Shown: positions 26,445 to 64,000 of the stretch, piece after piece
Numbering within the stretch: the stretch's first letter is position 1
Layout of the letters: each line of letters opens with the position of its first letter
Assembly: GCA_028716365.1 (NCBI GenBank)
Contig: JAQUPZ010000001.1
Location: forward strand, 124,001 to 188,000
Source: Kiritimatiellia bacterium
GTDB taxonomy: Bacteria > Verrucomicrobiota > Kiritimatiellia > UBA8416 > YA12-FULL-48-11
Length of the DNA: 64,000 nt
Direction: 5' to 3'
Made by a program: the position numbers and the translations under genes
The notes under the pieces: model-generated
Told to the model about the DNA's origin: nothing
Seen by the model: only the letters and a program-made list of their open reading frames with translations
Databases searched by the model: none

Positions 26445-29400
26445 TGAAATGTTACATGTTACAGCGACGGACAGTTGTTGTGGCATTTAGACTTTTTGTT
26501 TTCGCGGGTGTGATGTTTTCAGCTACGGCTGGTGATTGGCCCACTTTCAGGGCAGATGCTTCACGCAGTGGTTACACTCCGGAAGTACTGTCGACCAATC
26601 TAAATCTGACTTGGACATATCAATCGGTTCACCCGCCGATGCCTGCCTGGCCGACGCGGAATCGCCTGCGTTATGACACCGTATATCAGCCGGTAATTTC
26701 CGGTGGAGCTCTTTTTTTCGGCAGCTCGGCTGATGGCAAGGTGTATGCATTGGATGCCGTCACCGGTCGATTGAAATGGGAATTCTTCACTGATGGACCG
26801 GTACGGTTTGCACCAGCAGCCTGGAAAGACCGCGTGTTTGCGGTAAGTGACGATGGCCATTTGTACTGTCTGTCGGCGAAGGACGGACGACTACTCTGGA
26901 AGCGACATGGTGGTTCGCGACCGGACATGATCCTGGGTAATGACCGTATGATCTCACGCTGGCCAGCACGCGGTGGTCCGGTGGTGGCCGATAATATTGT
27001 CTATTTTGCTGCAGGTATCTGGCCCAGTGAAGGCATCTTTATCTGTGCTCTCAATCCACTTAATGGAAAAGTATTATGGTGTAACAATTCTTCCGGTTCC
27101 CTGGAAATGGATCAACCCCATCCCACGGCCCGTTCAAAAAGCGGCGTGGCCGCCCAGGGTTATCTGGCCATAGACGGCGATCGACTGGTGGTACCCACGG
27201 GTCGGGCAGTACCTGCGTTCTTTGATCGAAGTGATGGAAAATTCCTGTACTGCTGGCTCCAGCCAAATGTACACGTCGGCGGTTGTGATGTCATGACTTT
27301 TGACAGATGGTTTTTTAATGGTGGGGCAGTTTTCACTCTCATTGATGAAACAATGATTGGAAAAATGGGAACTGTCGCGGCCCTTCATCCAGATTATCTT
27401 CTGGTTTCAGGCAAAACACCTTCTCTTAATGTCATCGATAGAAAAGCTCTCGTGGTTGAAAAGCAAATCACCGGCCCAAAGGGACAGAAGAAAACAGGTA
27501 AAGGTCTGGCTGCTCCTCTGTGGACAATTAAATTGCCGGAAGAAGTCATGCTCAAACAGGTTCGACTGAAAGGATCCGAGACACCAGGGTACAAAACGAT
27601 GGGTTCAACTGCCTGGTATGATTTGTCCATCGAGGGGCAACCCGCGGCGTTGATTACAGCCGGTGATTACGTAATTGTGGGTGGCCGGGATCGTGTCCTG
27701 ATGTTTGATTTACGATCACGTAATCAGGTTTGGAGCGCTGATGTTGAAGGTGAGGCCGGCGGGTTGGCGATGGCCGATGGCCGGTTGTTTGTAAGTACCG
27801 ATAAAGGGATGATTTATTGTTTTTGTGGAACGGTAACAGGAAAACCGGCCACCATCAAAGCTGCAATAGAGACAGAACCGGAAGACCCGTTATACCAGGC
27901 CGCTGCGGACGAAATAATTCGACGCACGGGTATCAAGGAAGGTTACTGTGTTGATTTTGGCTGCGGTGATGGGCGGTTGGCTTTGGCGCTGGCCCGGCGT
28001 ACCAGTTTACAGATTTACGGTGTTGAGCAAGATGCAACCAAAGTTGAAGCGGCCAGACGCATGCTTGATAGGGCAGGATTCTACGGGAAAAGAGTAATGA
28101 TCCATCAAACCAATTTGGCGAAAGTACCTTATCCTAATTCTTTTGCTGATTTAATTGTATCTCAACAATCGGTTGAAAAGGGGACAAAAGATTTTATTAA
28201 CAATGATGTTCGGCGAATGCAACGGCCTTACGGGGGTGTAGTCTGTGTGGGACGTTCTGGTGCCATGGAGTTATACACCCGCGGTCCGGTGGAAGGAGCT
28301 GGTAACTGGACGCACCAGCATACGGATTCCGCAAATACACTTTGTTCTGAAGACCTTGTCATTCGTGCACCTGTGTCTATGCTCTGGTTCCGCGATACGG
28401 ATTTTGTCCTGCCTTTACGTCACGGCCGCGGTCCCGCTCCACTGGTTGATTCCGGGAGGATGTTTATCGGAGGATTACACGGAATGCGAGCAATGAATAT
28501 CTACAACGGCCGGACCCTGTGGGAATACCCTCTGGAAAATCTGCTCCTTTCTTACCATAGTGAGCATAGCATTGGCGCCGCATGGACCGATGGACATTAC
28601 TGTCTTGGTGGGAACCGTCTTTACGTAAATACCGGTGACCGATGTGTATGTCTTGACGTGGAAAGCGGTAAAAAGATTCGTGAGTTAAATCCGCCAGCTT
28701 ATCCTAACGGCAAACCGGGAACCTGGGGATACATCGCCTATGAGGGTGGTTTGTTATTTGGTACACTTGCCGAAACAAACTATCTCGTGCGGTGCTGGTC
28801 ACCGTTATGGAATACCGGTGGCCAGTTTATCCAGTCGGTCATGTTCTTTGCAATGGATCCGGATACCGGTAAAATCAAATGGACCTACAAACCTGAACGA
28901 TCCATACGAAACAATGCCATTGCCATCAGTAAAGGACGGGTTTATCTCATAGATCGCGATATTGCGCGCGTTGACGACATTCAATATCCGGTACAGGACC
29001 TTCAAGCCGAGGCCAAGCGGTTGGCCAAGGCCAATGATACCCACGAAGATGATGAAATACGGGCACTTGCCCCGCAACCTCCCAATGGCCGGTTACTGGC
29101 ACTGGCCGCTTCGACGGGGCAGGTCTTATGGAAGACCGACGAGAATGTGTTCGGCAGTCAGCTGGCGGTGAGCGAAAAATACGGTTTGCTTCTGATGTGT
29201 TATCAACCGGTCCATCAGGCATCGCTGGCTGTGGAGCGGGGTGACCGTATGGCTGTTTTCAAAACCGTTGACGGTTCGCGAGTGTGGGATGTTTCGGCAA
29301 ATTATGAGGCCCGGCCAATACTCAATGACCGGACGATCTACGCAGAACCGGGCGCGTGGGACCTGCTCACCGGCCAGAAAACGCCGTTTATGCTAAAGCG

Positions 29401-29662
29401 ATCTTATGGATGTGGTATTCCGGCGGGTTCACGGAACCTGCTTGTCTTTCGTTCGGGGACGCTGGGATATGTTGATCTGACAAAGGGCGATCAGGTTGAA
29501 AACTATGGAGGAATCCGGCCCGGTTGCTGGGTGAATGTGATTCCAGCCGGAGGTTTGTTGGTGATGGCCGATGCGGCCAGTTGGTGTACATGCAGTTATC
29601 TTAACCAGGCAACAATCGCCCTCGAACCGGCATCAGCTTCTTTATTGCCTCCAATCCTGTGA
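26441..29662 (+). CDS. PQQ-like beta-propeller protein with embedded class I SAM methyltransferase domain
   Basis: WPTFRADASRSGYTPE..., PVISGGALFFGSSADGKVYALDAVTGRLKWEF; central VDFGCGDGRLALALARRTSLQIYGVEQDATKVEAARRML; second propeller half follows. Confidence 0.83.
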   Translation: MMKCYMLQRRTVVVAFRLFVFAGVMFSATAGDWPTFRADASRSGYTPEVLSTNLNLTWTYQSVHPPMPAWPTRNRLRYDTVYQPVISGGALFFGSSADGKVYALDAVTGRLKWEFFTDGPVRFAPAAWKDRVFAVSDDGHLYCLSAKDGRLLWKRHGGSRPDMILGNDRMISRWPARGGPVVADNIVYFAAGIWPSEGIFICALNPLNGKVLWCNNSSGSLEMDQPHPTARSKSGVAAQGYLAIDGDRLVVPTGRAVPAFFDRSDGKFLYCWLQPNVHVGGCDVMTFDRWFFNGGAVFTLIDETMIGKMGTVAALHPDYLLVSGKTPSLNVIDRKALVVEKQITGPKGQKKTGKGLAAPLWTIKLPEEVMLKQVRLKGSETPGYKTMGSTAWYDLSIEGQPAALITAGDYVIVGGRDRVLMFDLRSRNQVWSADVEGEAGGLAMADGRLFVSTDKGMIYCFCGTVTGKPATIKAAIETEPEDPLYQAAADEIIRRTGIKEGYCVDFGCGDGRLALALARRTSLQIYGVEQDATKVEAARRMLDRAGFYGKRVMIHQTNLAKVPYPNSFADLIVSQQSVEKGTKDFINNDVRRMQRPYGGVVCVGRSGAMELYTRGPVEGAGNWTHQHTDSANTLCSEDLVIRAPVSMLWFRDTDFVLPLRHGRGPAPLVDSGRMFIGGLHGMRAMNIYNGRTLWEYPLENLLLSYHSEHSIGAAWTDGHYCLGGNRLYVNTGDRCVCLDVESGKKIRELNPPAYPNGKPGTWGYIAYEGGLLFGTLAETNYLVRCWSPLWNTGGQFIQSVMFFAMDPDTGKIKWTYKPERSIRNNAIAISKGRVYLIDRDIARVDDIQYPVQDLQAEAKRLAKANDTHEDDEIRALAPQPPNGRLLALAASTGQVLWKTDENVFGSQLAVSEKYGLLLMCYQPVHQASLAVERGDRMAVFKTVDGSRVWDVSANYEARPILNDRTIYAEPGAWDLLTGQKTPFMLKRSYGCGIPAGSRNLLVFRSGTLGYVDLTKGDQVENYGGIRPGCWVNVIPAGGLLVMADAASWCTCSYLNQATIALEPASASLLPPIL

Positions 29663-32672: not shown

Positions 32673-32766
32673 AATTACATTTGGTGTTTGGAATGAACTA
32701 GGATGACTATAGGCTCTATGAATATTATCAACCAATTTGCGTGCATGCCATAGGGGAGGAAAGAAC

Positions 32767-34659
32767 GTGAAATATAAAAATACGGCAGGATTGCGATTAC
32801 AGGAATGGAGAATCATGGCAGCGGTTATCATGGTTTACGCCGGTTCAGTGGCTTCGCGAGGAGCTGTGCCCATTACGGAACAAGGAGAGGCGAAGGCGAT
32901 GATCGTCAAGCCGGCCGGGGCGTCTGAGGTGGTGAATTTCGCCGCAACCGAGCTGCAGAAGTATGTGGAGAAGATATCCGGCGCTGAGTTGCCGATACGC
33001 GACGACAAGGCGAATGTATCCGGCCCGGCCATCGTCCTGGAGCGAGCCAACCTTGACCCGTTGCGTCAGGGGTTGGAGGTCGATAGCTTCACCGTCAAGA
33101 GCGAAGGTGATCGGCTGCGGCTGAGGGGCAACACGGACCGCGCGGTGCTTTATGCGGTTTACGCCTTTCTGGAGTCGCTTGGTGCCGCGTGGCTGGAGCC
33201 GGGCGAGGCGGGCGAGATCGTGCCGCACATGTCGACGATTACCGTCTCGGACCTCGATCTAGCCTTCAAGCCCTCGTTCGATCTCCGCGGTGTGGTTCTT
33301 TACGACCAAGGGGAAGGCAGAGCGGCCGTCGATTGGATGGCGAAAATGCGCAAGAACCTCATCATGCACCCCAGCAAAATCACGGTCAAGGATTGCGAGC
33401 AGCGCGGGATACTCGTGATGGAAGGCACAATGCACGGCTTTGACACAAGAATGGGCGTCAGCCCCGATTGGCACAAGGACCCGGCCAATTACAAGTACGT
33501 CGCAATGCTTGGTGGCAAGCGCAAGCCGTTTCGATATACAGATCAGACGGAGCCGTGCCTCGCGAACGAAGAGTCCGTGAAGATGCTTATCGCGACGTCG
33601 CTTAAATTTATTGAAAGCTATCGTCCAAGCGTTTTTATTTTCGACGCCCGCGCGGATGACATTATGAACAATTGGTGCGAGTGCGAGGAGTGCAGCAAAC
33701 GTATGTCCACGGACGATCACATTAGATACGTCAACCGGCTGGCAAAGATTATTCACGATAAATGGCCGGAGAAGAAGGTTTCGCTGATTGCCTATTTTGA
33801 CACGATGTCGCCACCCAAGGAGATCTTACCCGATCTTTCGATGGGCAACATGATCCTGTGGTTTGCGCCTATCACTCGAACCTATCAAAATCCGATTCAA
33901 TCGGCGACTAACGAAAAGGTGAAGCTGCAATTCCCCCGCAACAAGGCGGTTTGGCCGAGAACGGACGGCGCCTGGCTGCCCTTTCTCCGCGAGTGGCGCA
34001 GCGCATTCAGCGGGCCGATTCTAATGTTGGATTATTACCTCTGGTCAGGGCAGAGCAACGTGCGGCCGGGTTACTTTTACGTCCGGCCCGACGTGATTGC
34101 CGCCGATCTGAAATTCTACAAGGAATTGGGGCTAAGTGGCTCGATCGGAGTCGATCCCTACCCGCTAAAAATCCCCAACGGCTGGAACCAGTATTTGAAG
34201 GCCAGGTTGCTGTGGGATCCGTCGCAAGACGTGGAGAAGCTGGAGCGTCAATATTACGAACAGCTCTACGGGAATTACGCAGCGGCGGTACGGAAGCATC
34301 TCACGGTAATGACCGAGATAGTCAATCTGGAACGGAACGATGCCGAGAGCGTGCTGAAGCTGCGCAACGCGGCTGCGGCGTTCGCCGCCGACACGGCGGA
34401 CTGCGAGAAGTCCCCGGCCGTGGAAGAAAGATTGAACCGCATATCGCTTTGGGCATCGTATGTTACGCTAAGGAAAGACTATTATTACCGCTTGCGGGAG
34501 AAAAAGGCGGATGCGGCGGAAATGGAAAAAGCCGCGATGAAGTTGGTGGATTTCATCGAGGCCAATCACGACAAGTTCAAAGGCCGCTACAACCTGGTGG
34601 ATGACATGATACCCGCTGGGATCAAGAACATGTTGAAACGCAAAGCCGCAAAGAAGTAA
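32767..34659 (+). CDS. DUF4838-domain secreted protein
   Basis: NFAATELQKYVEKISGAELPI, YAVYAFLESLGAAWLEPGEAGEIVP, NNWCECEECSKRM. Confidence 0.83.
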   Translation: MKYKNTAGLRLQEWRIMAAVIMVYAGSVASRGAVPITEQGEAKAMIVKPAGASEVVNFAATELQKYVEKISGAELPIRDDKANVSGPAIVLERANLDPLRQGLEVDSFTVKSEGDRLRLRGNTDRAVLYAVYAFLESLGAAWLEPGEAGEIVPHMSTITVSDLDLAFKPSFDLRGVVLYDQGEGRAAVDWMAKMRKNLIMHPSKITVKDCEQRGILVMEGTMHGFDTRMGVSPDWHKDPANYKYVAMLGGKRKPFRYTDQTEPCLANEESVKMLIATSLKFIESYRPSVFIFDARADDIMNNWCECEECSKRMSTDDHIRYVNRLAKIIHDKWPEKKVSLIAYFDTMSPPKEILPDLSMGNMILWFAPITRTYQNPIQSATNEKVKLQFPRNKAVWPRTDGAWLPFLREWRSAFSGPILMLDYYLWSGQSNVRPGYFYVRPDVIAADLKFYKELGLSGSIGVDPYPLKIPNGWNQYLKARLLWDPSQDVEKLERQYYEQLYGNYAAAVRKHLTVMTEIVNLERNDAESVLKLRNAAAAFAADTADCEKSPAVEERLNRISLWASYVTLRKDYYYRLREKKADAAEMEKAAMKLVDFIEANHDKFKGRYNLVDDMIPAGIKNMLKRKAAKK

Positions 34660-38694: not shown

Positions 38695-40908
38695 CTACTC
38701 CATGATCAATACCACACGGTCAACGTACAGTGCCTGAACTTCAGGAATGTGTCCGTGTGCGAACCAGATGCCTGCGCCAGCTGAGAAATCGACAACACCG
38801 AGATCAATCCAGCGATATTTTTCTCCTTTAAGTTCCTCGATCTTAAGCTGTTTGCTGACAAGTCCGCGCTTTTCCTGGAAATTGTACACGCCGAGCGAGC
38901 CGGCCTTACCCTTGTCGATTGTCGCGTCGCATCGCATGCTGGCATAAACCTGGAATTTACCCTTTACGGCTGGTTTGTATCCTGTGTTCCAATCGACTTT
39001 TGTCGGCATTCGTGTTGTCCATCCATCCGAGGCGTTGGCGTCTTTAACGCGTGTTGCGGTATCGTGGTAGTTTTCAAATAACGCATCGTCGAAAACAATC
39101 CATGTGTCCTCGGGAATATCCTTGCACATTTCCGGCGGGAATTTTCGTGAAGTAAACGTGCTCGAAAGGTTGTTTAAATACGTTTCAAATTGTTTCGCAT
39201 CCTTGTCGGTGATGCGATGCGCTTTTGTTTTATTTTCGTGGCATAATTCAACGAATTCAGTCACTGCTTTCAGCGGGTCTTTCGGGCCGAGAAAAGAAAG
39301 GTTCTTCTCGCGTGATTCGCATCGCAGCGGGTAATAACGCGAAATCCAAACGTGATCGACAGCCATTTTTACCTTGCGAAGACGCTTCAATTCGGCAGAA
39401 CCATCACCGTAAACCTCGGTAGATTCCCTGACGGCATTGTCCATGATTTCTGTTGCGCGATTAAGCGTTTCGAGATCAATCCATTGTGCGGATGTCATTC
39501 CAAAGCATCCGAGATAGATTTTAGATTTCTCCGCCTGATTAATTAAAACGTCCCAGTAATCGTGAATGAACGGAGCGATTTCCTTTCCATAATATCCCTC
39601 GCTGAAATCACGAAATAGAACTTTATCATCAAGTGACGGGTCCCACATCAACCGCATCAATACCCAGTTTCGCATGTCGGCAAAGTCGTCGCCTTCGCCT
39701 TCTGCAAAAAGTCCGACGGCGCCGTTTTCGACAAAATAACGCACGTTCGGTGCAAGTACGCGGAGGTTGGGATGGGGGCCAATGTAATCCGTGTAATTCG
39801 TGACATAATCCCAGATGAATAAATGCTTTGCGATTTTGCTCCATCCCTCCATGTCCTCGGCGAATTTTTTGTTTTGCTCGCCCGTGAGAGGCTGAATATA
39901 GGAACATTCAATCGTACAGAGACGAATCAGCACGTTGTCCCGTGGTTTCACGAATTTCGGCGGCTTTCGTGTGTACTGATAAGCAAGTGATTCGACAAGT
40001 ACATCCGGGAATTCCTTCTCCACCTCCGCAGCAACTTTGTTCAGAAAATGTACGAGCGAGCCGGCGGGAGAGCCTTCATTTTCGTCCAGCGCCTTGCATT
40101 TTTCGCATGTACAGTTTTTGTGCCAGTCGTTCTGGCTGATGTCGATGAAACGTGCGTCGGGATTCTTGCGCAGAGTTTCGAGTATGTTTTTCGTAACTTC
40201 CTTGCACAGTTCGTCGTTTGTCAAACAGAGCTGGGCATTATCGCATGTCCGTTTTCCTTTGATTTCGCTGAACCACTCAGGATGTTTGTCGAAGTATTTC
40301 TCCGGCGGGATGATTTTGTAAAATGAATGCACGAAATGAATGATGCTCACTTTTCCGCCATATTCCGGGGGAATATTTCCGTTTCCCTTCATCCGCGCGG
40401 AGAAAATGCCGGATTGTACCCAGCGATGGTACATTTCGCGGGAAATCATTTTCGGTGCGTATGAAATATTCAGATCCCCGGGGATCTCAAGAGATTCTTT
40501 TTTCGGAATGAACGTTTCATCCGGTGTCCACCATCGCACACCCACAATATCCTGAAGGAATGAATACACGGCATAAAGTGTACCGCGGCGGGAATGGCCG
40601 GTGAGAATCAGATTTCCATCTTTTGATTGGATAAGGATCTCATCAAACGCAAAGTTTTTTTGCGGCGATTTTGAAGTTTTACCGACGAAAATTAATGATT
40701 TCACATCTTTCGGAACGTCCTTTTCCGCGACGATGGGAAAATCACCTTTAGTAACTTTCTGCAAATGTAACTGAAGTTCATTTGCGGCGGTTTTTTCCAC
40801 TGGAGTTGGAGAATCGGGGAGAACGATTTTCCAGTTCGTCGCGGCACTTGAAATAGAGAGAGTGAAAGTCAGAAAAGTACAAAGTAGATAAAAGATTTTT
40901 TGTTTCAT
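38695..40908 (-). CDS. DUF4838-domain secreted protein with C-terminal beta-sandwich-like domain
   Basis: KTAANELQLHLQKVTKGDFPIV, LYAVYSFLQDIVGVRWWTPDETFIPK, NCTCEKCKALDENEGSPAG. Confidence 0.87.
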   Translation of the reverse strand: MKQKIFYLLCTFLTFTLSISSAATNWKIVLPDSPTPVEKTAANELQLHLQKVTKGDFPIVAEKDVPKDVKSLIFVGKTSKSPQKNFAFDEILIQSKDGNLILTGHSRRGTLYAVYSFLQDIVGVRWWTPDETFIPKKESLEIPGDLNISYAPKMISREMYHRWVQSGIFSARMKGNGNIPPEYGGKVSIIHFVHSFYKIIPPEKYFDKHPEWFSEIKGKRTCDNAQLCLTNDELCKEVTKNILETLRKNPDARFIDISQNDWHKNCTCEKCKALDENEGSPAGSLVHFLNKVAAEVEKEFPDVLVESLAYQYTRKPPKFVKPRDNVLIRLCTIECSYIQPLTGEQNKKFAEDMEGWSKIAKHLFIWDYVTNYTDYIGPHPNLRVLAPNVRYFVENGAVGLFAEGEGDDFADMRNWVLMRLMWDPSLDDKVLFRDFSEGYYGKEIAPFIHDYWDVLINQAEKSKIYLGCFGMTSAQWIDLETLNRATEIMDNAVRESTEVYGDGSAELKRLRKVKMAVDHVWISRYYPLRCESREKNLSFLGPKDPLKAVTEFVELCHENKTKAHRITDKDAKQFETYLNNLSSTFTSRKFPPEMCKDIPEDTWIVFDDALFENYHDTATRVKDANASDGWTTRMPTKVDWNTGYKPAVKGKFQVYASMRCDATIDKGKAGSLGVYNFQEKRGLVSKQLKIEELKGEKYRWIDLGVVDFSAGAGIWFAHGHIPEVQALYVDRVVLIME

Positions 40909-53156: not shown

Positions 53157-54173
53157 ATGGCTTTTGCAAAGAAAAGTACATTAGGATCAAAGCTCCTTTC
53201 GGGTTACAAACTTTTGAAAGGCCGTGATCTTGAGCGCGTAAATGACGAATTGCTGACACTCGGGAAAAATATCCGTTCTGTTCAGAAAGGTCGCGGACTT
53301 GGCGGACGCCTTTCATTTACCGAGAAAGGCCGTGTACTCGGCTGTTTCCCCCAGGTCCGTCGTCCTTCGGCAAAAACGGTATGGAGTGCGCACTATCACA
53401 ACTTCTTTGAGCTTTCTTTTATTCTCGAAGGCGAAGCGAAACACAGGATCGGAGATAATGTTTACCCGGTAAAGCCGGGGGATATAGTTTTTCTCAACAA
53501 CGAACTTCCGCATAATTACGTCATAGGTCCAAAAGAAAGACTCACTGTGCTTAATATTGCCTTTCTTCCGGAGTTTCTCGAATCCGCGATCACCCTCGAT
53601 AAGCTGGTTACCGGTGTACAGTTTTTCATGGTGGAACCGTTCTTCCGTTCGCTTGACGATGTCGGCGGCAAACTTACCGTTACCGGTGATGTCTTCTTCC
53701 GGCTGGCTACGCTCGCGCTTTCAATAGTTGATGCATTTAACCGGAGTTATCCTGCCAAAAGCGATCTAGTGCCGCTCCTGTTCAAGGCATTCATCATCAG
53801 CGTTAATGCTGCGTATGAGGAACGTGTTGCCGAGAGGCCAAGATTCTACGAGAAGAGAGAAGCGCTGTTTCGCGAGATCGTTTCCTTCATTGATGGGCGT
53901 CTTTCCGGGAAGATAACTCTTGCGAATATTGGAACGGCGGTCCGGCTCGGACGGACACAATTAGCTGAGATTTTCAAAGAGAAACAGGGAATGACCATTG
54001 TGGCATACGTCAACCGGCGTCGAGTTGAGCAGGCTCAGCATTTACTGCGTACTACCGACATGCCCATCCTTGATATTGCTTTTGAAACAGGCTTTGGCGA
54101 TGTCTCTCACTTCAACCACACTTTCAAGCGTATTGCAGGGGTCTCGCCCCGGCAATATCGCGGCGGTAAATAA
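53157..54173 (+). CDS. AraC family transcriptional regulator (cupin + HTH)
   Basis: HYHNFFELSFILEGEAKHRIGDNVYPVKPGDIVFLNNELPHNYV; VEQAQHLLRTTDMPILDIAFETGFGDVSHFNHTFKRIAGVSPRQYR. Confidence 0.93.
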   Translation: MAFAKKSTLGSKLLSGYKLLKGRDLERVNDELLTLGKNIRSVQKGRGLGGRLSFTEKGRVLGCFPQVRRPSAKTVWSAHYHNFFELSFILEGEAKHRIGDNVYPVKPGDIVFLNNELPHNYVIGPKERLTVLNIAFLPEFLESAITLDKLVTGVQFFMVEPFFRSLDDVGGKLTVTGDVFFRLATLALSIVDAFNRSYPAKSDLVPLLFKAFIISVNAAYEERVAERPRFYEKREALFREIVSFIDGRLSGKITLANIGTAVRLGRTQLAEIFKEKQGMTIVAYVNRRRVEQAQHLLRTTDMPILDIAFETGFGDVSHFNHTFKRIAGVSPRQYRGGK

Positions 54174-54223
54174 GCCAACTTTTTGGGGACAATCCTCCAA
54201 GATCATCACATCATGTCAGGCTT

Positions 54224-57200
54224 ATGATGCATGACATGAAAACTAAAACTATCCTGTCGTTTAATTTCACCATCAAATTGATCCTGCCAATATTGTTGTC
54301 GTTATCAGGAATTACTGCAGACGCGGCTGTCAAGGTAAAGGAGAAAAAGGTTGTCGTTCCGACCTATCCGCCAGGCCCGTGCGACAAGAACCCGGTATTT
54401 TACACGGGACGCGTTTACCAGGGCGCGCAGGGCCGTGTTTATCCATACCCGCTCCAGGATGTTCTTCATGACGAGAAGGTGGACAGGGAATACACTGCGC
54501 TCTGGCTCGAGAATGATTACCTGAGCATGTCGGTTCTGCCGGAGATTGGCGGACGGCTTTTCAGTTTTACCGATAAGGACAGCGGGTATGAGACTTTCTA
54601 CCGGCAGTCGGTAGTCAAGCCTGCCTTGATCGGGATGTTGGGCGCATGGACGTCGGGCGGCGTGGAATGGAATTTTCCCCATCATCACCGGGCAACAACG
54701 TTCATGCCGGTTGACTACACGACCACCAAGAATGATGACGGAAGCAAGACCGTGTGGATTGGCGAAACCGAACTTCGTCACAGGATGAAGTGGTCGATAG
54801 GGCTAACAATGAAACCAGGCCGTTCGTATCTTGAAGCCACCTGCAAGTTTATGAACCGCCAGTCGTACATTGAGTCCATGCTTTACTGGGCCAATGTTTC
54901 CGTGCACTGCGGAACGAATTACCAGGTGATTTTCCCGCCCTCCTGCCGGGTCGGGATGGACCATCACAAGGATTACTTTACCCGTTTCCCCATGGGGCGT
55001 CCCTGTGTGGCGATAGATGAGATCGCGGACCTGAGCTGGTGGAAGAATTTTACCACGGATCACCGTTCGATTTTCGCTGTTGATCCGGATAACGATTTCC
55101 TGGCCGGTTACGACTATGGCCGGCAAATTGGTACGGCACATGTTGCCAACCGCCATATTGTCTGTGGCAAGAAGTTCTTTCTTTGGGGAAATAATCCCGG
55201 CGGTTTCGTGTGGGACAAGGTGTTGACCGATACCGATGGTCCATATCTTGAACTGATGGTTGGTGCTTATTCCGACAACCAGCCGGATTACAGCTGGATA
55301 TCGCCCTACGAAACACGCGAGTGCAAGCAGTACTGGTATCCCATCAAGAAAATCGGCGGGGTCAAGTGCGCCAATCTTGACGCTGCCATCAATCTTGAGC
55401 GTTGCGCGCTGGACAAGGTCTTCCTCGGTCTCAATGCGACGGCTAAAATCAAGAATGCCCGCGTCTGTCTGAAATACGGGGCAAAAGAATTCAACGAGTT
55501 GATTAATATCGATCCCAACACACCTTATATAAAAGAAATTACGGTGGATGTAAATGTCAGTGACCAGCAGATCACCGGTATCCTGTGCGATTCTAACGGA
55601 CGTGAGCTTGTTCGATATACGCCGGTAAAAGTTGAAGAAAAGCCGCTTCCTGAAATCGTTGAGAATCCGAAGTCTCCTTCCGAATACAAGACGGTGGAGG
55701 AACTGTACCTGGTCGGCCTGCGGCTGGAACAGTTTCACAATGGTATCGTTGATCCCGTACCGTACTATGAGGAAGCGCTCAAGCGTGACCCGAACGATCT
55801 GCGTGTTAATACTGTGCTTGGTATCAGGCGGGCTCGGGAAGCCAGGTTTGAAGAGGCCGAAAAACATCTGCGCCGTGCAGTTGAGCGTACAACCCGCAAT
55901 TATACGCGCGCAAAAGACGCCGAGCCGCACTACTACCTCGGGGTTGTGCTGAAGGAGCAGGGCAAATTGAAGGAGGCGCAGGATGAACTCTGGAAAGCGG
56001 TCTGGCGTGACAGCTTCCAGCGCGCAGCTTATATCGAACTGGCCAAGATTGACTGCGTGAAAGGTGATTATAGTCACGCCCTTGAGATGATTAATAATGC
56101 CCTGGCCGTGGCCATACGGTCCAGTAAGGCACATACGCTGCGTGCATATATTCTGCGTAAACTCGGGCAGAAAAAAGATGCGGAACTCGAACTGGACCTG
56201 GCTGTTAAGAACGACCCCCTCGATTACTGGTCTGTGGCAGAGTGTTGTTTCCTTAAAGGTAAGGGAGAAAAGGCGCTGGCGGCGGCTGAGAAGAATCGCG
56301 GGAACAAACTGCAGCAGATGCTTGAGACAGTTACCGACTACGGTGATATCGGTGCCATCGATGAGGCGCTCTCGCTGCTGACACAGGCTGAAAATGCCGG
56401 GACCGCGTATGCCAGCCCGCTCGTTAAATATTATGCCGCTTATTACAATCTTCAGAGCGGCAAAACCGGTGTGGCACGTGATCTTTTTGCCAAAGCGGCG
56501 GCGATGCCCACAGATTACTGTTTCCCGTTCCGGCACGAAGAACTGCGAATGCTTTCCGCCGCCCTTGAGTTGTGTCCATCAGATGCGAACACCTGGTACT
56601 ATCTCGGTAACCTCTGCTACTACTTTGAGCAGCGTGAACGCGGAGTTGCCGCATGGGAGAAAGCCGTTTCGCTCAACCCGTCGCACGGTCTGGCCCTGCG
56701 TAATCTCGGCTTTGCCTACGGAAGGATACTGGAGAAACGCGATCTGGCGGTTGCCCGTTATGAGGCTGCGATCAAGGCTGATCCGCAGAACGTTGCGCCT
56801 GTCCTTGAGCTGGACAAGCTGTGGGAGAAGATGGGCCGTGACTCCGCAGCCAGGTTGGCGTTTCTCGAGGGCCGTATGGAGACGGTACAGAAGAGTGATC
56901 CAACCATCCTGCGACTGGCTTACCTATATAATGAAACAGAACAGTATGATAAATCGCTGGCGATCCTGACAACCCGGCGTTTCCATGTATGGGAAGGTGC
57001 TGCTGCGCTGCACCAGCCGTTTGTAGACGCGTGCCTGCTGCGCGGCCTGGCAAAACTCAAAGCCGGGCAGAGTGCTGCTGCACTGAAGGACCTCGAGGCG
57101 GCGAATACCTATCCCGAGAACCTGCAGGCTGGACGTCCCGGCGATGCGGGACAGGCTCCCAAGATTCATTATTACACTGCCCTGGCTTACAAAGCGGTTG

Positions 57201-57571
57201 GCGATTCAGGGAAGGCAAAAGCTGAACTGCGAAAGGCGCTCGATGGCCGCGTGGCAGATGGTGAGATGAATTACTATCGCATCCTGTCTCTTCGCGAACT
57301 GGGTGAGGCAGCGGGCGAGGCTGAACAGATACAACGTCTTCGTTCTGCAATTGCGGAATTGGATAAACCCGCGACTGTTTATGCATACGCGAAGTTTGGC
57401 GGTGAGAATACACCGTTGGAACGCGTGATGCACCGCTCGGCACAGAAGTCATATCTCCAGGGGTTGATGTCGCTGGCAGAAGGCAAGTCTGTGGAAGCGA
57501 AAGCGAGTTTTGCTGCAGCGGTCAAGGAACGTCCGGCCATGATCTGGGCAAAGTCATTCCTGGCAAAATAG
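54224..57571 (+). CDS. DUF5107-domain protein with C-terminal TPR repeats, secreted
   Basis: ALWLENDYLSMSVLPEIGGRLFSFTDKDSGYETFYRQSV; GGVEWNFPHHH; many TPR units. Probable start 54236. Confidence 0.85.
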   Translation: MMHDMKTKTILSFNFTIKLILPILLSLSGITADAAVKVKEKKVVVPTYPPGPCDKNPVFYTGRVYQGAQGRVYPYPLQDVLHDEKVDREYTALWLENDYLSMSVLPEIGGRLFSFTDKDSGYETFYRQSVVKPALIGMLGAWTSGGVEWNFPHHHRATTFMPVDYTTTKNDDGSKTVWIGETELRHRMKWSIGLTMKPGRSYLEATCKFMNRQSYIESMLYWANVSVHCGTNYQVIFPPSCRVGMDHHKDYFTRFPMGRPCVAIDEIADLSWWKNFTTDHRSIFAVDPDNDFLAGYDYGRQIGTAHVANRHIVCGKKFFLWGNNPGGFVWDKVLTDTDGPYLELMVGAYSDNQPDYSWISPYETRECKQYWYPIKKIGGVKCANLDAAINLERCALDKVFLGLNATAKIKNARVCLKYGAKEFNELINIDPNTPYIKEITVDVNVSDQQITGILCDSNGRELVRYTPVKVEEKPLPEIVENPKSPSEYKTVEELYLVGLRLEQFHNGIVDPVPYYEEALKRDPNDLRVNTVLGIRRAREARFEEAEKHLRRAVERTTRNYTRAKDAEPHYYLGVVLKEQGKLKEAQDELWKAVWRDSFQRAAYIELAKIDCVKGDYSHALEMINNALAVAIRSSKAHTLRAYILRKLGQKKDAELELDLAVKNDPLDYWSVAECCFLKGKGEKALAAAEKNRGNKLQQMLETVTDYGDIGAIDEALSLLTQAENAGTAYASPLVKYYAAYYNLQSGKTGVARDLFAKAAAMPTDYCFPFRHEELRMLSAALELCPSDANTWYYLGNLCYYFEQRERGVAAWEKAVSLNPSHGLALRNLGFAYGRILEKRDLAVARYEAAIKADPQNVAPVLELDKLWEKMGRDSAARLAFLEGRMETVQKSDPTILRLAYLYNETEQYDKSLAILTTRRFHVWEGAAALHQPFVDACLLRGLAKLKAGQSAAALKDLEAANTYPENLQAGRPGDAGQAPKIHYYTALAYKAVGDSGKAKAELRKALDGRVADGEMNYYRILSLRELGEAAGEAEQIQRLRSAIAELDKPATVYAYAKFGGENTPLERVMHRSAQKSYLQGLMSLAEGKSVEAKASFAAAVKERPAMIWAKSFLAK

Positions 57572-57580
57572 GAGGCTGAA

Positions 57581-58453
57581 ATGAAAATTACTATTGGCAC
57601 AGTTTTGGTTGTACTTGCATTTATTGGAGTCGGACAGTCGGAGCCCGTCTGCCCCATGGGCGAGGGCTGGGAGTTCGATCAGCAGTTCAGTGATGAATTC
57701 AATGGACAGGAGTTGGATGGGCAGAAGTGGTGGGATTTCAATCCCGAATGGTACGGACGCAAGCCCGGTTATTTCTCGCGTGAGAATGTAACGGTCAAGG
57801 ATGGAAAACTGTGTCTGACAGCAAAAGTTCAGAAACCGGAAGAAGTGACGGTGGAAAATAAAGTGCGTGGCTATGATAAGTTCACCACATCTACTGTTAA
57901 AAGTAAGAAAAGAATCCTGTACGGTTATTTTGAAGCCCGTTGCAAGTCGATGAAAGCAAGCGTTTGCAATGCGTTCTGGCTATATGACCCGCTCAATCCA
58001 CCCGCCAAGTACAAGGAAGGCAGTTTCTCGGAGGAGATTGATATTTTTGAAATCTTTGGCAAGCCGGCCAAGAAGGAGTATGACCGGGTGTATTGCACAA
58101 CGGTACACCGCTTTTACACGCCTTATGTAGAGTCCATCGCAAATGCAAAGCAAACCCCGTTGCCAAAAAAAGGTATGAAACAGAAGGTACCATTTGATTT
58201 TCATGCAGATTTCCACGTTTATGGATTCCTCTGGACGCCGACGGAGATGAAATGGTTTGTCGATGGCAAGGAGGTTTTCGCGCGTGATAACGATTACTAT
58301 CATGCGGCGCTATACATCATGTTTGATTGCGAGATCATGAAAGACTGGGTCGGGTTGCCGGATCCGGCTGATCTGCCCAGCACTTTCGAGATAGATTATC
58401 TGCGCGTATGGAAACACAAGGACCAGCCATTCCCGATGGCCAAGGGGTTCTAA
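57581..58453 (+). CDS. GH16 family glycoside hydrolase (agarase/porphyranase/carrageenase-like)
   Basis: FSDEFNGQELDGQKWW; catalytic motif EEIDIFEIFG (ExDxxE); DFHVYGFLWTPTEMKWFVDGKEV. Confidence 0.9.
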   Translation: MKITIGTVLVVLAFIGVGQSEPVCPMGEGWEFDQQFSDEFNGQELDGQKWWDFNPEWYGRKPGYFSRENVTVKDGKLCLTAKVQKPEEVTVENKVRGYDKFTTSTVKSKKRILYGYFEARCKSMKASVCNAFWLYDPLNPPAKYKEGSFSEEIDIFEIFGKPAKKEYDRVYCTTVHRFYTPYVESIANAKQTPLPKKGMKQKVPFDFHADFHVYGFLWTPTEMKWFVDGKEVFARDNDYYHAALYIMFDCEIMKDWVGLPDPADLPSTFEIDYLRVWKHKDQPFPMAKGF

Positions 58454-58478
58454 TCAAAGCGGATTGAAAGGAATAACA

Positions 58479-60056
58479 ATGATGAGCGAGAAAATATTAC
58501 GAATGTCTGTAATTCTTTGTCTTTTGATGGCTGGTTCAGAACAATGTGTGGAGGCCGAAGAATCCATACCGGACCTTTCGGCTTATATCCTGACGCCGCC
58601 GGCGAAACCCGAGCCGCGGATAAACGGAGCGAAAGTATTCGGCGTGAGGCCGGGGAGCCCGATCCTTTACACGATTGCGGCAACGGGGAACAAGCCGATG
58701 AAATTCTCGGTCAAGGACCTGCCGAGCGGTGCAAAACTCGATCCAGTGAATGGTCGCATCAGCGGCGCGATTGCGAAACGCGGCACATACCGCATGATGC
58801 TGAAAGCCGAAAACTCGCTTGGCAGTGCCGAACGCGAACTGAAGATTGTTGTGGGCGATGATACTTGTCTGACGCCGTTGCTTGGTTGCAACACATGGGG
58901 CGGCTGGGGTTCAAAGGTTGCTGATGCCAACCTGCGTGCAGCCGCAGAGGCGATGGTGCGGCTCGATCTTATCAATCACGGCTGGCAGTACATCAACATT
59001 GATGACGGCTGGCAGGGGAAGCGCGGCGGCAAATATAATGCGATCCAGCCCAACGAGAAATTTCCTGACATGAAAGCGCTGTGTGATTATATCCACAGCC
59101 TCGGTCTGAAGGCCGGGATTTACTCAACACCCTGGGTTACCAGTTATGCGGGATTCGTCGGCGGATCGAGCGATGACCCACAGGGCTCATGGACGAAACC
59201 CGCAAAGCCAAGAGATGGCTGGCATTACGGCAAACATTTCTTCGAAAAGAACGACGCGCAGCAGTGGGCCGAGTGGGGGTTCGATTACGCAAAATATGAT
59301 TCAAGTATCACAAGCGTGGAAATAACCCGCCGGTTTGCCGACGCACTGGCTGCATGTAACCGTGACATTGTTTATGAGCTTTCCAATGAAGTACCGCTGA
59401 AACTGGCCGAATGCATCAGTATTGCGCAGCTTACCCGGACGACAGGTGATCTTGTCGATTTCTGGGACCGTTCCCAGATGGATGAGAATCTCAGGAAATG
59501 GGCTGAAGGTGTTCGAGAGGTATGGATTAAGCAGGATGCTTTCGCACCCTTCCAGAAACCCGGACATTGGAATCATGCGTGCAATTTGCGTATTGGCCTG
59601 CTTGGCGGCTGGCGCGACAAGCCGCTCACGCCGTCGCATCTTACCGTTAACGAACAATATTCGCATGTCAGTCTCTGGTGTCTGTGGGGTTCGCCGATGA
59701 TCATTGGAACACCAATCGAACGGCTGGACAAATTTACTTTGAGTCTGCTCTCGAACGACGATGTTCTCGATGTGAACCAGGATCCTCTCGGAAAACAGGC
59801 CTGCCGGCAGGTTCTTGCTGATGGCGGCGAGGTGCTTGTGAAGGAATTGGAAGATGGTTCCAGGGCGGCTGGGCTGTTCAACCCGGGTCCGAAAGAGCTG
59901 ACTGTAACTGTGAAATGGACGGACATTGGACTGAAAGAAAAACAGAAAGTGCGCGACCTGTGGCGCCAGAAGGACCTGGGTGAGTTTGCCGAAAGTTTCA
60001 GTACGGCTGTACCGTCGCACGGCGTGGTCATGGTCAGGCTTACCGGTGCAAAATAA
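58479..60056 (+). CDS. GH27 alpha-galactosidase-like with N-terminal putative Ig domain
   Basis: LLGCNTWGGWGS, WQYINIDDGWQGKRGG, GFDYAKYDS; N-terminal SVKDLPSGAKLDPVNGRISGAIAKRGTY He_PIG-like. Confidence 0.9.
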   Translation: MMSEKILRMSVILCLLMAGSEQCVEAEESIPDLSAYILTPPAKPEPRINGAKVFGVRPGSPILYTIAATGNKPMKFSVKDLPSGAKLDPVNGRISGAIAKRGTYRMMLKAENSLGSAERELKIVVGDDTCLTPLLGCNTWGGWGSKVADANLRAAAEAMVRLDLINHGWQYINIDDGWQGKRGGKYNAIQPNEKFPDMKALCDYIHSLGLKAGIYSTPWVTSYAGFVGGSSDDPQGSWTKPAKPRDGWHYGKHFFEKNDAQQWAEWGFDYAKYDSSITSVEITRRFADALAACNRDIVYELSNEVPLKLAECISIAQLTRTTGDLVDFWDRSQMDENLRKWAEGVREVWIKQDAFAPFQKPGHWNHACNLRIGLLGGWRDKPLTPSHLTVNEQYSHVSLWCLWGSPMIIGTPIERLDKFTLSLLSNDDVLDVNQDPLGKQACRQVLADGGEVLVKELEDGSRAAGLFNPGPKELTVTVKWTDIGLKEKQKVRDLWRQKDLGEFAESFSTAVPSHGVVMVRLTGAK

Positions 60057-60109
60057 AATTTGATAATCAAAAGCAAGGTTGAGAAGAGAAAATAATAAGG
60101 AGTCGAGTC

Positions 60110-60883
60110 ATGCGTTTTGAAAAAAAGGTTGTTTTGGTTACGGGTGCCAGTCGCAATACCGGTGTGGAGATTGCCGCTGCTTTCGCAAAAGAAGGCGCAA
60201 CGGTACTGGTTAACGGTACAACAGCGGAAGGGGTACATAAGGCAGTAAAGGAGCTGGAGTCACGCGGATTGCGCGGATTTATTGAGGCACCCGCCGATAT
60301 CGGTAATCCGGCATCGGTTGATACACTATTTGCCATGATCCGGCAGAAAGCAGGTAGACTCGATGTGTTGGTCAACAATGCTGTTCTGCAGGGGATTGGT
60401 CCTTCATTCGAGGATACACCGTTGGACCTGTTTGAGAAAGTCATCAGGGTGAATCTCGTTGGCGCGTTTCATGTGGCGCGCGAAGCAGCAAAGATAATGA
60501 TCGCGCAGGGCGGCGGTACAATTGTCAACGTAGGATCTAATGTTTCGACCCGCGCGATCCGTAAACGAAGCGCTTATGTAGCCAGCAAAGGTGGGATTGA
60601 TGGCCTGACTCTTGCCATGGCTCTTGATCTTGGCCCGAAGAAGATACGGGTGAATACGGTCTCGCCCGGTTATATTCATACTGAGCGCTGGGATTCTCTT
60701 TCCGAGGGTGATACGATCAGACGCAGAAAAAATGTTCCGTTGGGGAAAGAAGCCAGTGGTGCGGAAATTGCCGCGGCGATTCTGTTCATGGCATCCGACG
60801 AGGCATCCAGTGTACACGGAGCAAGGCTTGTAGTGGATGGAGGATGCTCGGCGCAGCATATGCCGTATGATGTAGATGTGTGA
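60110..60883 (+). CDS. Short-chain dehydrogenase/reductase
   Basis: VLVTGASRNTGVEIAAAFAKEGA, NNAVLQG, YVASKGGIDGLTLAMALDLG, GARLVVDGG. Confidence 0.92.
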   Translation: MRFEKKVVLVTGASRNTGVEIAAAFAKEGATVLVNGTTAEGVHKAVKELESRGLRGFIEAPADIGNPASVDTLFAMIRQKAGRLDVLVNNAVLQGIGPSFEDTPLDLFEKVIRVNLVGAFHVAREAAKIMIAQGGGTIVNVGSNVSTRAIRKRSAYVASKGGIDGLTLAMALDLGPKKIRVNTVSPGYIHTERWDSLSEGDTIRRRKNVPLGKEASGAEIAAAILFMASDEASSVHGARLVVDGGCSAQHMPYDVDV

Positions 60884-62190
60884 GTTATTCTATGAATGAC
60901 AAACCCGATCAGGTAATACACGGGAAGGCATTTCATCCTTCGTATAAGTGGGAATTACTGGCATTACTGTTCTTTACTTTCTTTCTGCATCAGGGAGACA
61001 GGGCAATTTTTGGCGTGGTTCTTTCGTCAATCAAGACCGACCTGCATCTTACCGATGCGCAACTCGGGCTTGTGGGCTCTGCTCTCTTTTTCACGCTGGC
61101 GCTGCTGGTACCGGTGGCGGGCTACCTTGGCGATATATGGAGCCGCAAGCGGATTATTACTGTCAGCCTGATGTTCTGGAGCGCGGCTACAATGGTTACC
61201 GGCGCGGCCCGCGGGCTGATCAGTTTGATTCTTTTCCGTAGTATTGCCACGGCTGGAGGAGAATCATTTTATGCGCCTTCCGCGTATTCGCTTATTGCTG
61301 TATTCCACAAGAAGACCCGCGCCTTCGCGCTGGCCATACACCAGTCATCGCTCTATGTCGGAGTGATAACGAGCGGCTTTCTTGGTGGTTACATTGCCGA
61401 GAGGTGGGGATGGAGATCCGCCTTCTATGTTTTCGGCTTTGTCGGAATTTTACTCGGGATAATACTGATGATACGGCTCAAGGATGCACCGCGCGATAAT
61501 TCCGACAGCAGGGGCCGGGTCGGATTGAGGGAAGCTTTTGGTGTGGTGTTTCGTACTAAAACAGCATGGCTGTTGACGACCGGGTTTGTGGCCATTGTCT
61601 TCGTGAACAATGCGTATATCGTATGGGCTCCGAACTTTGTACAGCAGAAATTCAATCTCTCCCTGACGGTGGCCGGCGGATATTCAATGCTCTACCATCA
61701 CATAGCTGCGATGATTGGTGTCCTGATCGGGGGACGTTTGTCGGATGCAATGGTTATTTCACGACGCCAGTTCCGCCTGCAGCTTCAGACTGTATCCATG
61801 TTACTGGGTGCTCCGATGATATTTCTAATGGGATATTCCAGCACGCTTGCGGCCACGTGGGTAACCATGGCGGCAATGGGATTTTTCCGCGGCCTTTACG
61901 AGGCTAATACGCATGCGTCGTTGTTTGACGTGATCGAGCCGCGTTACCGCGCTTCCGCAGTGGGTGTTATGACGACGATCGGGTTTCTTGCCGGGTCAGC
62001 CTCGCCGCTGTTGATGGGATACTGTCGTCGGGCTTTCGGAGAGGCACAGGGATTATCATACGGCTTCTCGGCTCTCTCAATTGCATACCTTATCGGAGGA
62101 ATTGCAGTGCTTGTAGCTTTGAAGTTTACATTCCATCACGATTACTATTCGGAAACGCCTGACAATCAGGCAGGAGTGTCCAAGTCGTGA
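60880..62190 (+). CDS. MFS transporter
   Basis: Multiple TM helices; HQGDRAIFGVVLSSIKTDLHLTDAQLGLVGSALFFTLALLVPVAGYLGDIWSRKR. Confidence 0.9.
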   Translation: MSYSMNDKPDQVIHGKAFHPSYKWELLALLFFTFFLHQGDRAIFGVVLSSIKTDLHLTDAQLGLVGSALFFTLALLVPVAGYLGDIWSRKRIITVSLMFWSAATMVTGAARGLISLILFRSIATAGGESFYAPSAYSLIAVFHKKTRAFALAIHQSSLYVGVITSGFLGGYIAERWGWRSAFYVFGFVGILLGIILMIRLKDAPRDNSDSRGRVGLREAFGVVFRTKTAWLLTTGFVAIVFVNNAYIVWAPNFVQQKFNLSLTVAGGYSMLYHHIAAMIGVLIGGRLSDAMVISRRQFRLQLQTVSMLLGAPMIFLMGYSSTLAATWVTMAAMGFFRGLYEANTHASLFDVIEPRYRASAVGVMTTIGFLAGSASPLLMGYCRRAFGEAQGLSYGFSALSIAYLIGGIAVLVALKFTFHHDYYSETPDNQAGVSKS

Positions 62191-62894
62191 AAATTACCTG
62201 GATCGGACAAGGCGGGTACCTGGTTGAACATGACGGACAGCGGCTTGTGATTGATCCGTATCTGAGTGATTCAGTGACAAAAAAATTTGGTTTGCACAGG
62301 CTTGCTCTGCCGGCAATGGCAATCTCAGAATTAAAGCCTGATGTGATATTCATCACCCACGATCATCTTGATCACTTTGATCCTGATACTCTTCAGCCGC
62401 TGATGTTGCAGTCGACCGCATCGTTGCTCGGGCCGCAGAGTGTTATCAATCATGGCCGGCAGATAGGATTCGATGAGAAACGGCTGGTTCTGGTGAAAGT
62501 AGGAAAATCAACGCGTTTTAGCGGATTTATTTTCACGCCGACACCTGCGATGCACAGCGATGAGTTTTCTGTGGGATTGCTTCTCGAGGCTGATGGCAGG
62601 CGGCTATATTTCAGTGGCGACACGCTGTACGATCCTGATCTTGTTAAGCGGGTTTGTACATTGACCAGTAAACCATTGAATGCCGCTTTTGTCTGCATGA
62701 ACGGCCGACTTAACAACATGAACATAACAGAAGCGGCCGAGTTTGTTGTACAATTAAAGCCGGAAATAGCAGTTCCCATGCATTACGGCATGTTTGCCGA
62801 AAATACTGCTGACCCCAACAGCTTTGCCGATGCTTGTAATGCAAAAGGCGTACCGACATTAATTTTAGAAATAGGAGGATCAACAGAGATATGA
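62187..62894 (+). CDS. Metallo-beta-lactamase-fold hydrolase (UlaG-like)
   Basis: ITWIGQGGYLVEHDGQRLVIDPYL, FITHDHLDHFDPDTL, YFSGDTLYDP, AVPMHYGMFAEN. Confidence 0.87.
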   Translation: MKITWIGQGGYLVEHDGQRLVIDPYLSDSVTKKFGLHRLALPAMAISELKPDVIFITHDHLDHFDPDTLQPLMLQSTASLLGPQSVINHGRQIGFDEKRLVLVKVGKSTRFSGFIFTPTPAMHSDEFSVGLLLEADGRRLYFSGDTLYDPDLVKRVCTLTSKPLNAAFVCMNGRLNNMNITEAAEFVVQLKPEIAVPMHYGMFAENTADPNSFADACNAKGVPTLILEIGGSTEI

Positions 62895-64000
62895 AAATTA
62901 CTGCTATCAAAACGTTCATCTGTCACGTTTATCGTACCAACTGGGTGTTTGTGAAAGTCCTGACCGATGTGCCCGGCCTTTATGGTGTGGGTGAGGCCAC
63001 GCTGGAATACCGCGAGTTGACAGTTGCCCAGGCATGCCGGGAAATTGAACGCGATCTCAAGGGAAAAGATCCGTCTGATATTGAAGCCATCTGGCACGAC
63101 AGTTTCCGTGATGCCTATTTCCGCGGTGGACCGGTGCTGATGAGTGCCATTTCTGCCATTGATATGGCGCTCTGGGATATCCAGGGAAAACATTTTGGTG
63201 TGCCGGTCTACCGCCTTATTGGAGGCAAGGTTCGCGACAAGGTTCTGTGCTACGCAAATGGCTGGTTTGCCGGGGCCAAAACGCCGGAACAATTTGCGGA
63301 AAAAGCGAAGAAAGCGCTGAAGATCGGATTTCAGGCACTCAAGTGGGATCCGTTCGGTTCCTCGTACAGGACGATTGAACCTAAACAGTTTCGCGAAGCG
63401 ATCAAGTGCGTGGAAAAGGTGTATGAGGCCACGCATGGCAAGGGTGACCTGATTATCGAGGGACATGGCAGGCTGGATTTGCCGACCGCTCTCAGGGTTG
63501 CGCATGCCCTTGAGGATTTTGACATTCTTTGGCTGGAAGAACCGCTTATACCTGACAGCCTTGAGGCTCTTGCTGAACTCAAAAAACGCGTCAAGGTTCC
63601 TATAGCCTGTGGCGAACGATTGTACAACCGCTGGCAGTTCCGCAGTCTGCTTGAACTGCGTGCTGCTGATTACATTCAGCCGGACGTTTCACATGCAGGC
63701 GGAATTACCGAACTCAAAAAAATAGCCGCCATGGTTGAAACCCATTACATTCCAATCTGCCCGCATAATCCGAGCGGACCGGTGGCTAATGCCGCCACAT
63801 TGCAACTGGCTGCCAACCTCACGAATTTCTACCTGCTTGAAACCATGAGCAGTGATGTTGCCTGGCGCAAAGATGTGTGTACGGAGAAGGTACAGATCAA
63901 CAACGGTTTTATGCAGATTCCGGATGCGCCCGGTCTCGGGGTTGATATTTGTGAAAAAGCAATTGCCAAACATCCATACCAGCCGACCTCACTGCGCCAT
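62891..64000 (+). CDS. Mandelate racemase/muconate lactonizing enzyme (galactonate dehydratase-like), truncated by window end
   Basis: ATGA overlap with previous gene; open to window end; AISAIDMALWDIQGKHFGVPVYRLIGG, GHGRLDLPTALRVAHALEDFDILWLEEPL. Confidence 0.9.
   Translation, partial: MKITAIKTFICHVYRTNWVFVKVLTDVPGLYGVGEATLEYRELTVAQACREIERDLKGKDPSDIEAIWHDSFRDAYFRGGPVLMSAISAIDMALWDIQGKHFGVPVYRLIGGKVRDKVLCYANGWFAGAKTPEQFAEKAKKALKIGFQALKWDPFGSSYRTIEPKQFREAIKCVEKVYEATHGKGDLIIEGHGRLDLPTALRVAHALEDFDILWLEEPLIPDSLEALAELKKRVKVPIACGERLYNRWQFRSLLELRAADYIQPDVSHAGGITELKKIAAMVETHYIPICPHNPSGPVANAATLQLAANLTNFYLLETMSSDVAWRKDVCTEKVQINNGFMQIPDAPGLGVDICEKAIAKHPYQPTSLRH

Follow-up and report, generated by a model that had tools for sequence, protein, structure and literature searches.

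The window analysed here is a stretch of 64,000 nucleotides from a Kiritimatiellia bacterium (contig JAQUPZ010000001.1, hereafter C1, positions 124001-188000; genome of 5.8 Mb in 55 contigs, estimated to be 92% complete). Its final part, 53157-64000, is occupied by eight plus-strand genes that encode an AraC-family regulator, a DUF5107-TPR protein, the glycoside hydrolases GH16 and GH27, a short-chain dehydrogenase (SDR), an MFS permease, a metallo-beta-lactamase-fold (MBL) hydrolase and an MR/MLE enzyme of the enolase superfamily (Table 1). From the AraC gene to the SDR gene the intergenic gaps are 50, 9, 10 and 53 bp, and from the SDR to the MR/MLE gene three successive overlaps of 4 bp are found. 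All domain assignments exceed the Pfam cut-offs, the catalytic motifs of GH16, GH27, SDR and MBL are intact, and the tightly spaced array of eight genes described in the first-pass annotation is fully borne out. The same-strand operon continues past the window to approximately window position 74585, reaching a total of about 21 kb, and adds a GH65/GH95-like protein, a DUF6259 protein, a second GH16 (GH16b, the first being GH16a) and an open reading frame (ORF) joining a GH50 beta-agarase to a second DUF6259 domain. In the following, L006-L008 designate segments of the same genome, other L numbers homologous loci, and G numbers genomes of the phylum. The reading developed below, to which we assign roughly even chances, is that of an AraC-controlled operon for a red-algal-type galactan, with exported galactanases and alpha-galactosidases, uptake by the MFS permease and a semi-phosphorylative De Ley-Doudoroff-like route whose lower steps are encoded elsewhere.

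Table 1. Genes of the operon; positions are those of the window unless an L or C label is given.
Feature	Position	Strand	Sequence characteristics
AraC-family regulator, first gene of the run	53157..54173	+	cupin sensor and HTH_18; Pfam HTH_18 83.7 bits, AraC_binding 51.6 bits
DUF5107-TPR protein, 1115 aa	54224..57571	+	DUF5107 (residues 71-374; 174.7 bits), then TPR repeats
GH16a, putative endo-galactanase, porphyranase/kappa-carrageenase-like	57581..58453	+	EIDIFE at residues 152-157
GH27, alpha-galactosidase-like	58464..60056	+	He_PIG N-domain, Melibiase_C; NIDDGW, KYD and RTTGDLVDFW motifs intact
SDR, putative sugar 1-dehydrogenase	60110..60883	+	TGxxxNTG cofactor motif, YxxxK
MFS permease	60880..62190	+	nearest NCBIfam model D-galactonate transporter family, 111 bits, under its cut-off
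MBL hydrolase, UPF0173 type, putative aldonolactonase	62187..62894	+	
MR/MLE, aldonate dehydratase-like, 393 aa	62891..64000, stop 72 bases beyond the window (L006:10891-12072)	+	
GH65/GH95-like protein, downstream of MR/MLE	L006:12094-14352	+	
DUF6259 protein, 1047 aa	L006:14352-17495	+	
GH16b	L006:17503-18390	+	
GH50-DUF6259 ORF, 1413 aa	L008:8344-12585 (C1:194344-198585)	+	GH50 beta-agarase N-terminal half, DUF6259 C-terminal half

Judged from sequence comparison, a red-algal-type galactan (agar-, porphyran- or carrageenan-like) is the best-supported target of the operon, because GH16a is nearest to porphyranases and kappa-carrageenases and because a GH50 beta-agarase is encoded downstream. 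Among PDB structures GH16a scores best with 8ep4 (110 bits), porphyranase A (92 bits) and kappa-carrageenases (87 bits), and its ExDxxE motif is present, with a score of 96.5 on the kappa-carrageenase equivalog model against a cut-off of 350. According to PMC12316285, 8EP4 is BpGH16C, an endo-6-O-methyl-beta-porphyranase. A laminarinase assignment of GH16a was discarded, since the best laminarinase scores far lower (51 bits), and its classification is left at the porphyranase/kappa-carrageenase level rather than at an exact subfamily. The GH50 domain aligns over its full length with the agarases 4bq2 and 5z6p (4bq2 at 3e-83), and both catalytic glutamates (DNE and GEFH motifs) align with those of 4bq2. 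The earlier proposal of a galactose-containing polysaccharide is thus strengthened. GH27 (Melibiase_2 81.9 bits, nearest structure 4ogz) carries the catalytic Asp pair and a clan-D domain. For GH16b the nearer structures are those of general GH16 glucanases/endo-glycosidases, and its close homologs recur next to the MR/MLE module in L058, L063, L074, L082, L086 and L088. GH50 genes lie within about 8 kb of the MR/MLE gene in G101, G215, G010, G080 and at two loci of G184. A match that covers the GH50 half as well as the DUF6259 half was found, among 388 phylum genomes, in this genome only. As initially noted, the cluster genes that were scanned include no SusC/D-type or sulfatase gene. Elsewhere in the genome, 34 matches point to about 33 sulfatase genes, one of them matched twice; about ten form a run at C1:902604-920464 that is unlinked to the galactan operon.

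Conservation of the enzymes behind the hydrolases was assessed in 49 loci with orthologs from several phyla, combining one scan of named genomes with 40 loci from phylum members and counting as neighbours those same-strand genes that lie no more than 4 kb from MR/MLE. An SDR gene accompanies MR/MLE in 43 of the 49 loci and in no locus does the nearest SDR lie farther off, so this grouping is not due to chance. Less constant neighbours are MBL (16 loci), a GH39/GH42-like glycosidase (16), MFS (12) and an IclR regulator (8), and rarer ones are GH16 (5), GH50 (4), 2-keto-3-deoxy-6-phosphogluconate (KDPG) aldolase (three loci, L009, L014 and L017) and a kinase (one). MR/MLE and SDR constitute the conserved core, to which MBL is an optional addition. 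The glycosidase that equals MBL in frequency (L016:7857-9302 and its homologs) is only weakly GH39/GH42-like. Gene order in Emticicia (L009) is DUF6259, DUF6259, SDR, MFS, MBL, KDPG aldolase, MR/MLE and GH27, in Ruminococcus (L017) MBL, MR/MLE, SDR, KDPG aldolase and a PfkB kinase of the 2-keto-3-deoxygluconate/2-keto-3-deoxygalactonate (KDG/KDGal) type, and on a Thermomicrobium plasmid a relative of MR/MLE adjoins an MBL protein. These linkages support a route in which oxidation and an optional opening of the lactone precede dehydration, with phosphorylation and aldol cleavage as the last steps. The MR/MLE enzyme is present in 80 of 388 sampled phylum genomes, its nearest named carriers including Kiritimatiellae and Victivallales genomes, with related clusters in Clostridia and Bacteroidota.

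Concerning the individual members of the module, the YxxxK motif of the SDR was read from the translation. The module SDRs of 20 out of 44 loci read carry TGxxxNTG in place of the usual TGxxxGIG cofactor motif, examples being the window protein and those of L012, L057, L058, L060-L062, L066, L070 and L073. The MBL hydrolase has its motifs intact (HDHLDH...HSD...GDT...HYG) and is UPF0173/PRK00685-like, with 93.9 bits against a cut-off of 144. The first-pass annotation had called it UlaG-like, an identity that was ruled out (34 bits on the UlaG model against a cut-off of 306; 2wyl at E=6e-4), and we infer that it may act as a lactonase. In the literature searched, no paper was found on a cluster of an MBL lactonase with MR/MLE, or on GH50 together with galactonate in Verrucomicrobia.

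The chemistry of the route hinges on the MR/MLE enzyme. Aligned to DgoD of E. coli MG1655, it keeps the equivalents of His185, His285, Asp258, Glu209, Glu235 and Glu310, residues whose roles are taken from DgoD. It passes the cut-off of the PRK14017 galactonate dehydratase model (332.5 versus 311) and reaches 336 bits, far under the cut-off of 750, with a model for bifunctional gluconate/galactonate dehydratases. A signature KxDPFG...E-x-HGR is shared with a haloarchaeal protein annotated as dgoD and with the Thermomicrobium protein; a similar motif is carried by promiscuous archaeal gluconate/galactonate dehydratases, which serves as a lead only. In a PDB comparison, scores are higher for 2poz (238 bits) and the D-galactonate dehydratase-like 3rr1 (223 bits) than for DauB (5olc, 147 bits) or an anhydro-L-galactonate cycloisomerase (5xd7, 110 bits). 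A lysine reported as the general base of the cycloisomerase AtGCI (K166) is conserved in DauB, and both enzymes also have a histidine in common (PMC5698469). At the lysine column, located at the end of barrel strand 2, the window enzyme reads LKWDPFG with Asp153, together with a DgoD-type His192, whereas the L018 protein shows KMK (KxK) at this position. Membership in the DauB/ACI cycloisomerases was excluded on the grounds of this substitution. A search of the remainder of the incomplete assembly for MR_MLE_C gave two long proteins that NCBIfam does not clearly assign and one IspG, and nothing resembling DauB. The first-pass annotation had left open a De Ley-Doudoroff-like route or an anhydrosugar variant. 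Since the enzyme possesses the His/His machinery of aldonate dehydratases without the cycloisomerase lysine, the former is favoured, and it gains from the linkage of SDR with MR/MLE (and MBL) and from the KDPG aldolase and kinase in homologous clusters; the latter is disfavoured by the replacement of the lysine by Asp and by the lack of a DauB-like enzyme elsewhere.

Taken together, the favoured scheme would begin outside the cytoplasm, where exported GH16, GH50-DUF6259, GH27, DUF6259 and GH65-like enzymes would cut the polymer to galactose-type monosaccharides. The MFS permease would bring the sugar in, most likely D-galactose, and a cytoplasmic SDR would oxidise its C1 to yield the aldonolactone. 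This would be opened by the MBL hydrolase, a step that would be optional across the family, and MR/MLE would dehydrate the aldonate to a 2-keto-3-deoxy-aldonate, from which a kinase and a KDPG/KDPGal-type aldolase encoded elsewhere would generate pyruvate and glyceraldehyde-3-phosphate. The localisation of the enzymes and the flux towards the unlinked kinase and aldolase are likewise proposed rather than observed. For these lower steps, the genome encodes a single KDPG aldolase (C1:872756; NCBIfam eda 244.6 bits) and a PfkB protein (C4:28215) that best matches KDG/KDGal-kinase models, under their cut-offs; no DGOK-family kinase was found in the genome.

Several observations weigh against this scheme. 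An aldolase or kinase, which the first-pass annotation had expected just beyond 64000, is not encoded in or adjacent to the operon (L006-L008), both copies being unlinked. MBL is absent from most homologous loci, and many of the homologous clusters contain GH39/GH42-like enzymes instead of agarases. A galactokinase-like gene is present in the genome, so galactose could be directed to the Leloir route. The MR/MLE enzyme belongs to a clade separate from E. coli DgoD and is not its ortholog; it has Glu190 at the first metal-ligand column in place of Asp183 of DgoD (Glu in 50 of the 51 sequences of the set) and Asp153 at the column of Asn146, and because of these differences its specificity may depart from that of DgoD.

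Part of the interpretation depends on DUF6259, which occurs twice in the operon (stand-alone and in the GH50 fusion) and also near the module in L009, L010, L015, L068 and L075. Two AlphaFold models (pLDDT 58 and 68, pTM 0.58 and 0.73), whose input alignment was shallow with five sequences, both gave as top PDB fold match ZgGH129 (5opq), a 3,6-anhydro-D-galactosidase, at a TM of approximately 0.5-0.6, with further matches to GH129-type galactosaminidases and GH36 alpha-galactosidases (TM of about 0.41-0.69 over the matches listed for the second model). D224, D461 and E512 (numbering of the stand-alone protein) are invariant in eight DUF6259 sequences, and in DagB three acids put forward as catalytic, D202, D486 and E517, are strictly conserved (PMC5698469). 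Sequence comparison revealed no kinship with GH129, as DUF6259 matched neither PF11308 (GH129) at E<=10 nor, in an hhalign comparison, the GH129-like protein of the same genome. With modest confidence, the models suggest a resemblance to exo-alpha-galactosidases; DUF6259 probably functions as an enzyme of this kind with a retaining mechanism, and release of anhydrogalactose is a possible activity. No paper on DUF6259 was found in the literature searched. A more far-reaching proposal, which we consider doubtful, is that DUF6259 represents a family of retaining exo-alpha-(anhydro)galactosidases not recognised so far, that its fusion to a GH50 exo-agarase lets a single polypeptide convert agar chains to monosaccharides that supply the module, and that the dehydratase subfamily of the SDR/MBL/MR-MLE module (KxDPFG...EGHGR) acts on a galactose-derived acid in replacement of the Dau/ACI route.

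The fold resemblance of both DUF6259 models to ZgGH129, and the way in which their invariant acids recall those of DagB, are also what lends interest to catabolism of anhydrogalactose, in which DUF6259 and/or GH27 would release 3,6-anhydrogalactose, the SDR would oxidise it and MR/MLE would serve as the cycloisomerase in a rewired version of the Zobellia DauA-DauB-DauC-DauD pathway. DauB is likewise an MR/MLE enzyme, and just one MR/MLE enzyme of the window type was found in the genome to fill such a role. We nevertheless regard this alternative as unlikely, given Asp153 in place of the general-base lysine of AtGCI and DauB together with a DgoD-type His192, an operon devoid of an aldehyde dehydrogenase, and an MR/MLE enzyme nearer to 2poz and 3rr1 than to either cycloisomerase structure.

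A different question is whether the same chemistry could serve another sugar (glucose, L-galactose, 6-O-methyl-galactose or a sulfosugar), with the link to galactan being local to agar-degrading lineages. Gut Clostridia, Ruminococcus, Emticicia and Victivallales have the module without GH50 and with GH39/GH42-like, GH16b or DUF6259 genes, the MR/MLE enzyme scores equally on the bifunctional gluconate/galactonate model, and sulfofucose breakdown employs an SDR, a lactonase, an MR/MLE dehydratase and an aldolase (PMC12421959). However, the hydrolases linked to the module are galactan-type both here and in the loci of closest synteny, and partner glycosidases elsewhere also match beta-galactosidase (GH42) or alpha-galactosidase (GH27) families, which leaves another sugar unlikely. 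Far less credible is a juxtaposition of two functions, with hydrolase genes for the polysaccharide beside an SDR-MFS-MBL-MR/MLE cassette for uptake and breakdown of free aldonates: the MFS permease is nearest to the D-galactonate transporter family and the conserved SDR-MR/MLE cassette is found with varied hydrolases, yet aldonates would leave SDR and MBL without a task, MFS accompanies the module in just 12 of the 49 loci, and the cassette genes overlap one another between hydrolase genes of one operon. The De Ley-Doudoroff-like galactan operon is the reading retained here.

Regarding the remaining features, the DUF5107-TPR protein has a hydrophobic signal-like segment at its N-terminus (judged by eye), and a literature search on DUF5107 yielded a single, unrelated paper. 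Scans for sigma-70 promoters and terminators gave no more hits than shuffled sequences, and an Rfam search gave no match. Downstream of the GH50-DUF6259 ORF, a gap of 227 bp is followed by a Gfo/Idh gene and, 8 bp after it, by a gene for a 1021-aa protein (L007:4288-7353) with a polysaccharide-lyase-4 carbohydrate-binding-module-like domain, a hydrazine synthase alpha (HZS_alpha) middle domain and weak cytochrome matches. Upstream in the window, a 1073-aa ORF (26441-29662) joins a PQQ-type beta-propeller to an S-adenosylmethionine methyltransferase domain, and two DUF4838 proteins on opposite strands (32737-34659 and 38695-40908) lie near an alpha-L-fucosidase-like gene and esterases, which suggests another glycan locus.

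The logic of the route is already known from the De Ley-Doudoroff, Dau and sulfofucose (PMC12421959) pathways. Novel elements are the SDR-MR/MLE core, which recurs and whose dehydratase subfamily is uncharacterised, a UPF0173-type MBL protein as candidate lactonase, the joining of GH50 to DUF6259, and the clue to DUF6259 given by the structural models. The substrate of this widely recurring module decides how its carrier bacteria use galactans; DUF6259 would be open to testing as a glycoside hydrolase family, and the MR/MLE subfamily as a step that belongs to neither the textbook Leloir nor the Dau route.

Among known systems, the De Ley-Doudoroff pathway of oxidative D-galactose breakdown and the E. 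coli dgoRKADT operon for D-galactonate have counterparts of the putative sugar dehydrogenase, the optional lactonase and the enolase-superfamily dehydratase with conserved His/His/Asp/Glu, and candidates for the KDPGal-type kinase and aldolase steps are encoded elsewhere in this genome; the differences are that the MR/MLE enzyme is not a DgoD ortholog (Glu as first metal ligand, N146 replaced by Asp), the lactonase candidate is a UPF0173-type MBL protein, and kinase and aldolase are unlinked with no DGOK-family kinase. The Paracoccus sulfofucose Entner-Doudoroff cluster (SfcH, SfcD, SfcF, SfcE; PMC12421959) follows the same logic of SDR, lactonase, MR/MLE dehydratase and aldolase, but with an SMP30-type lactonase, a PF03328 aldolase, an ABC transporter and no glycoside hydrolases noted. 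In the Bacteroides plebeius porphyran locus, the relative of GH16a, BpGH16C (8EP4), is accompanied by sulfatases and GH2, which the window operon lacks, and the accessible text of PMC12316285 notes no oxidative branch. Compared with the Zobellia galactanivorans carrageenan regulon (dagA/dagB, dauA-dauD; PMC5698469), an SDR here replaces the aldehyde dehydrogenase DauA, a dehydratase-type MR/MLE replaces the KxK cycloisomerase type, and a GH50 agarase is present without SusC/D or a sulfatase in the operon; common to both are AraC control, a GH16 galactanase, MFS uptake, an MR/MLE step and an alpha-galactoside hydrolase, for which DagB (ZgGH129) is the closest fold match.

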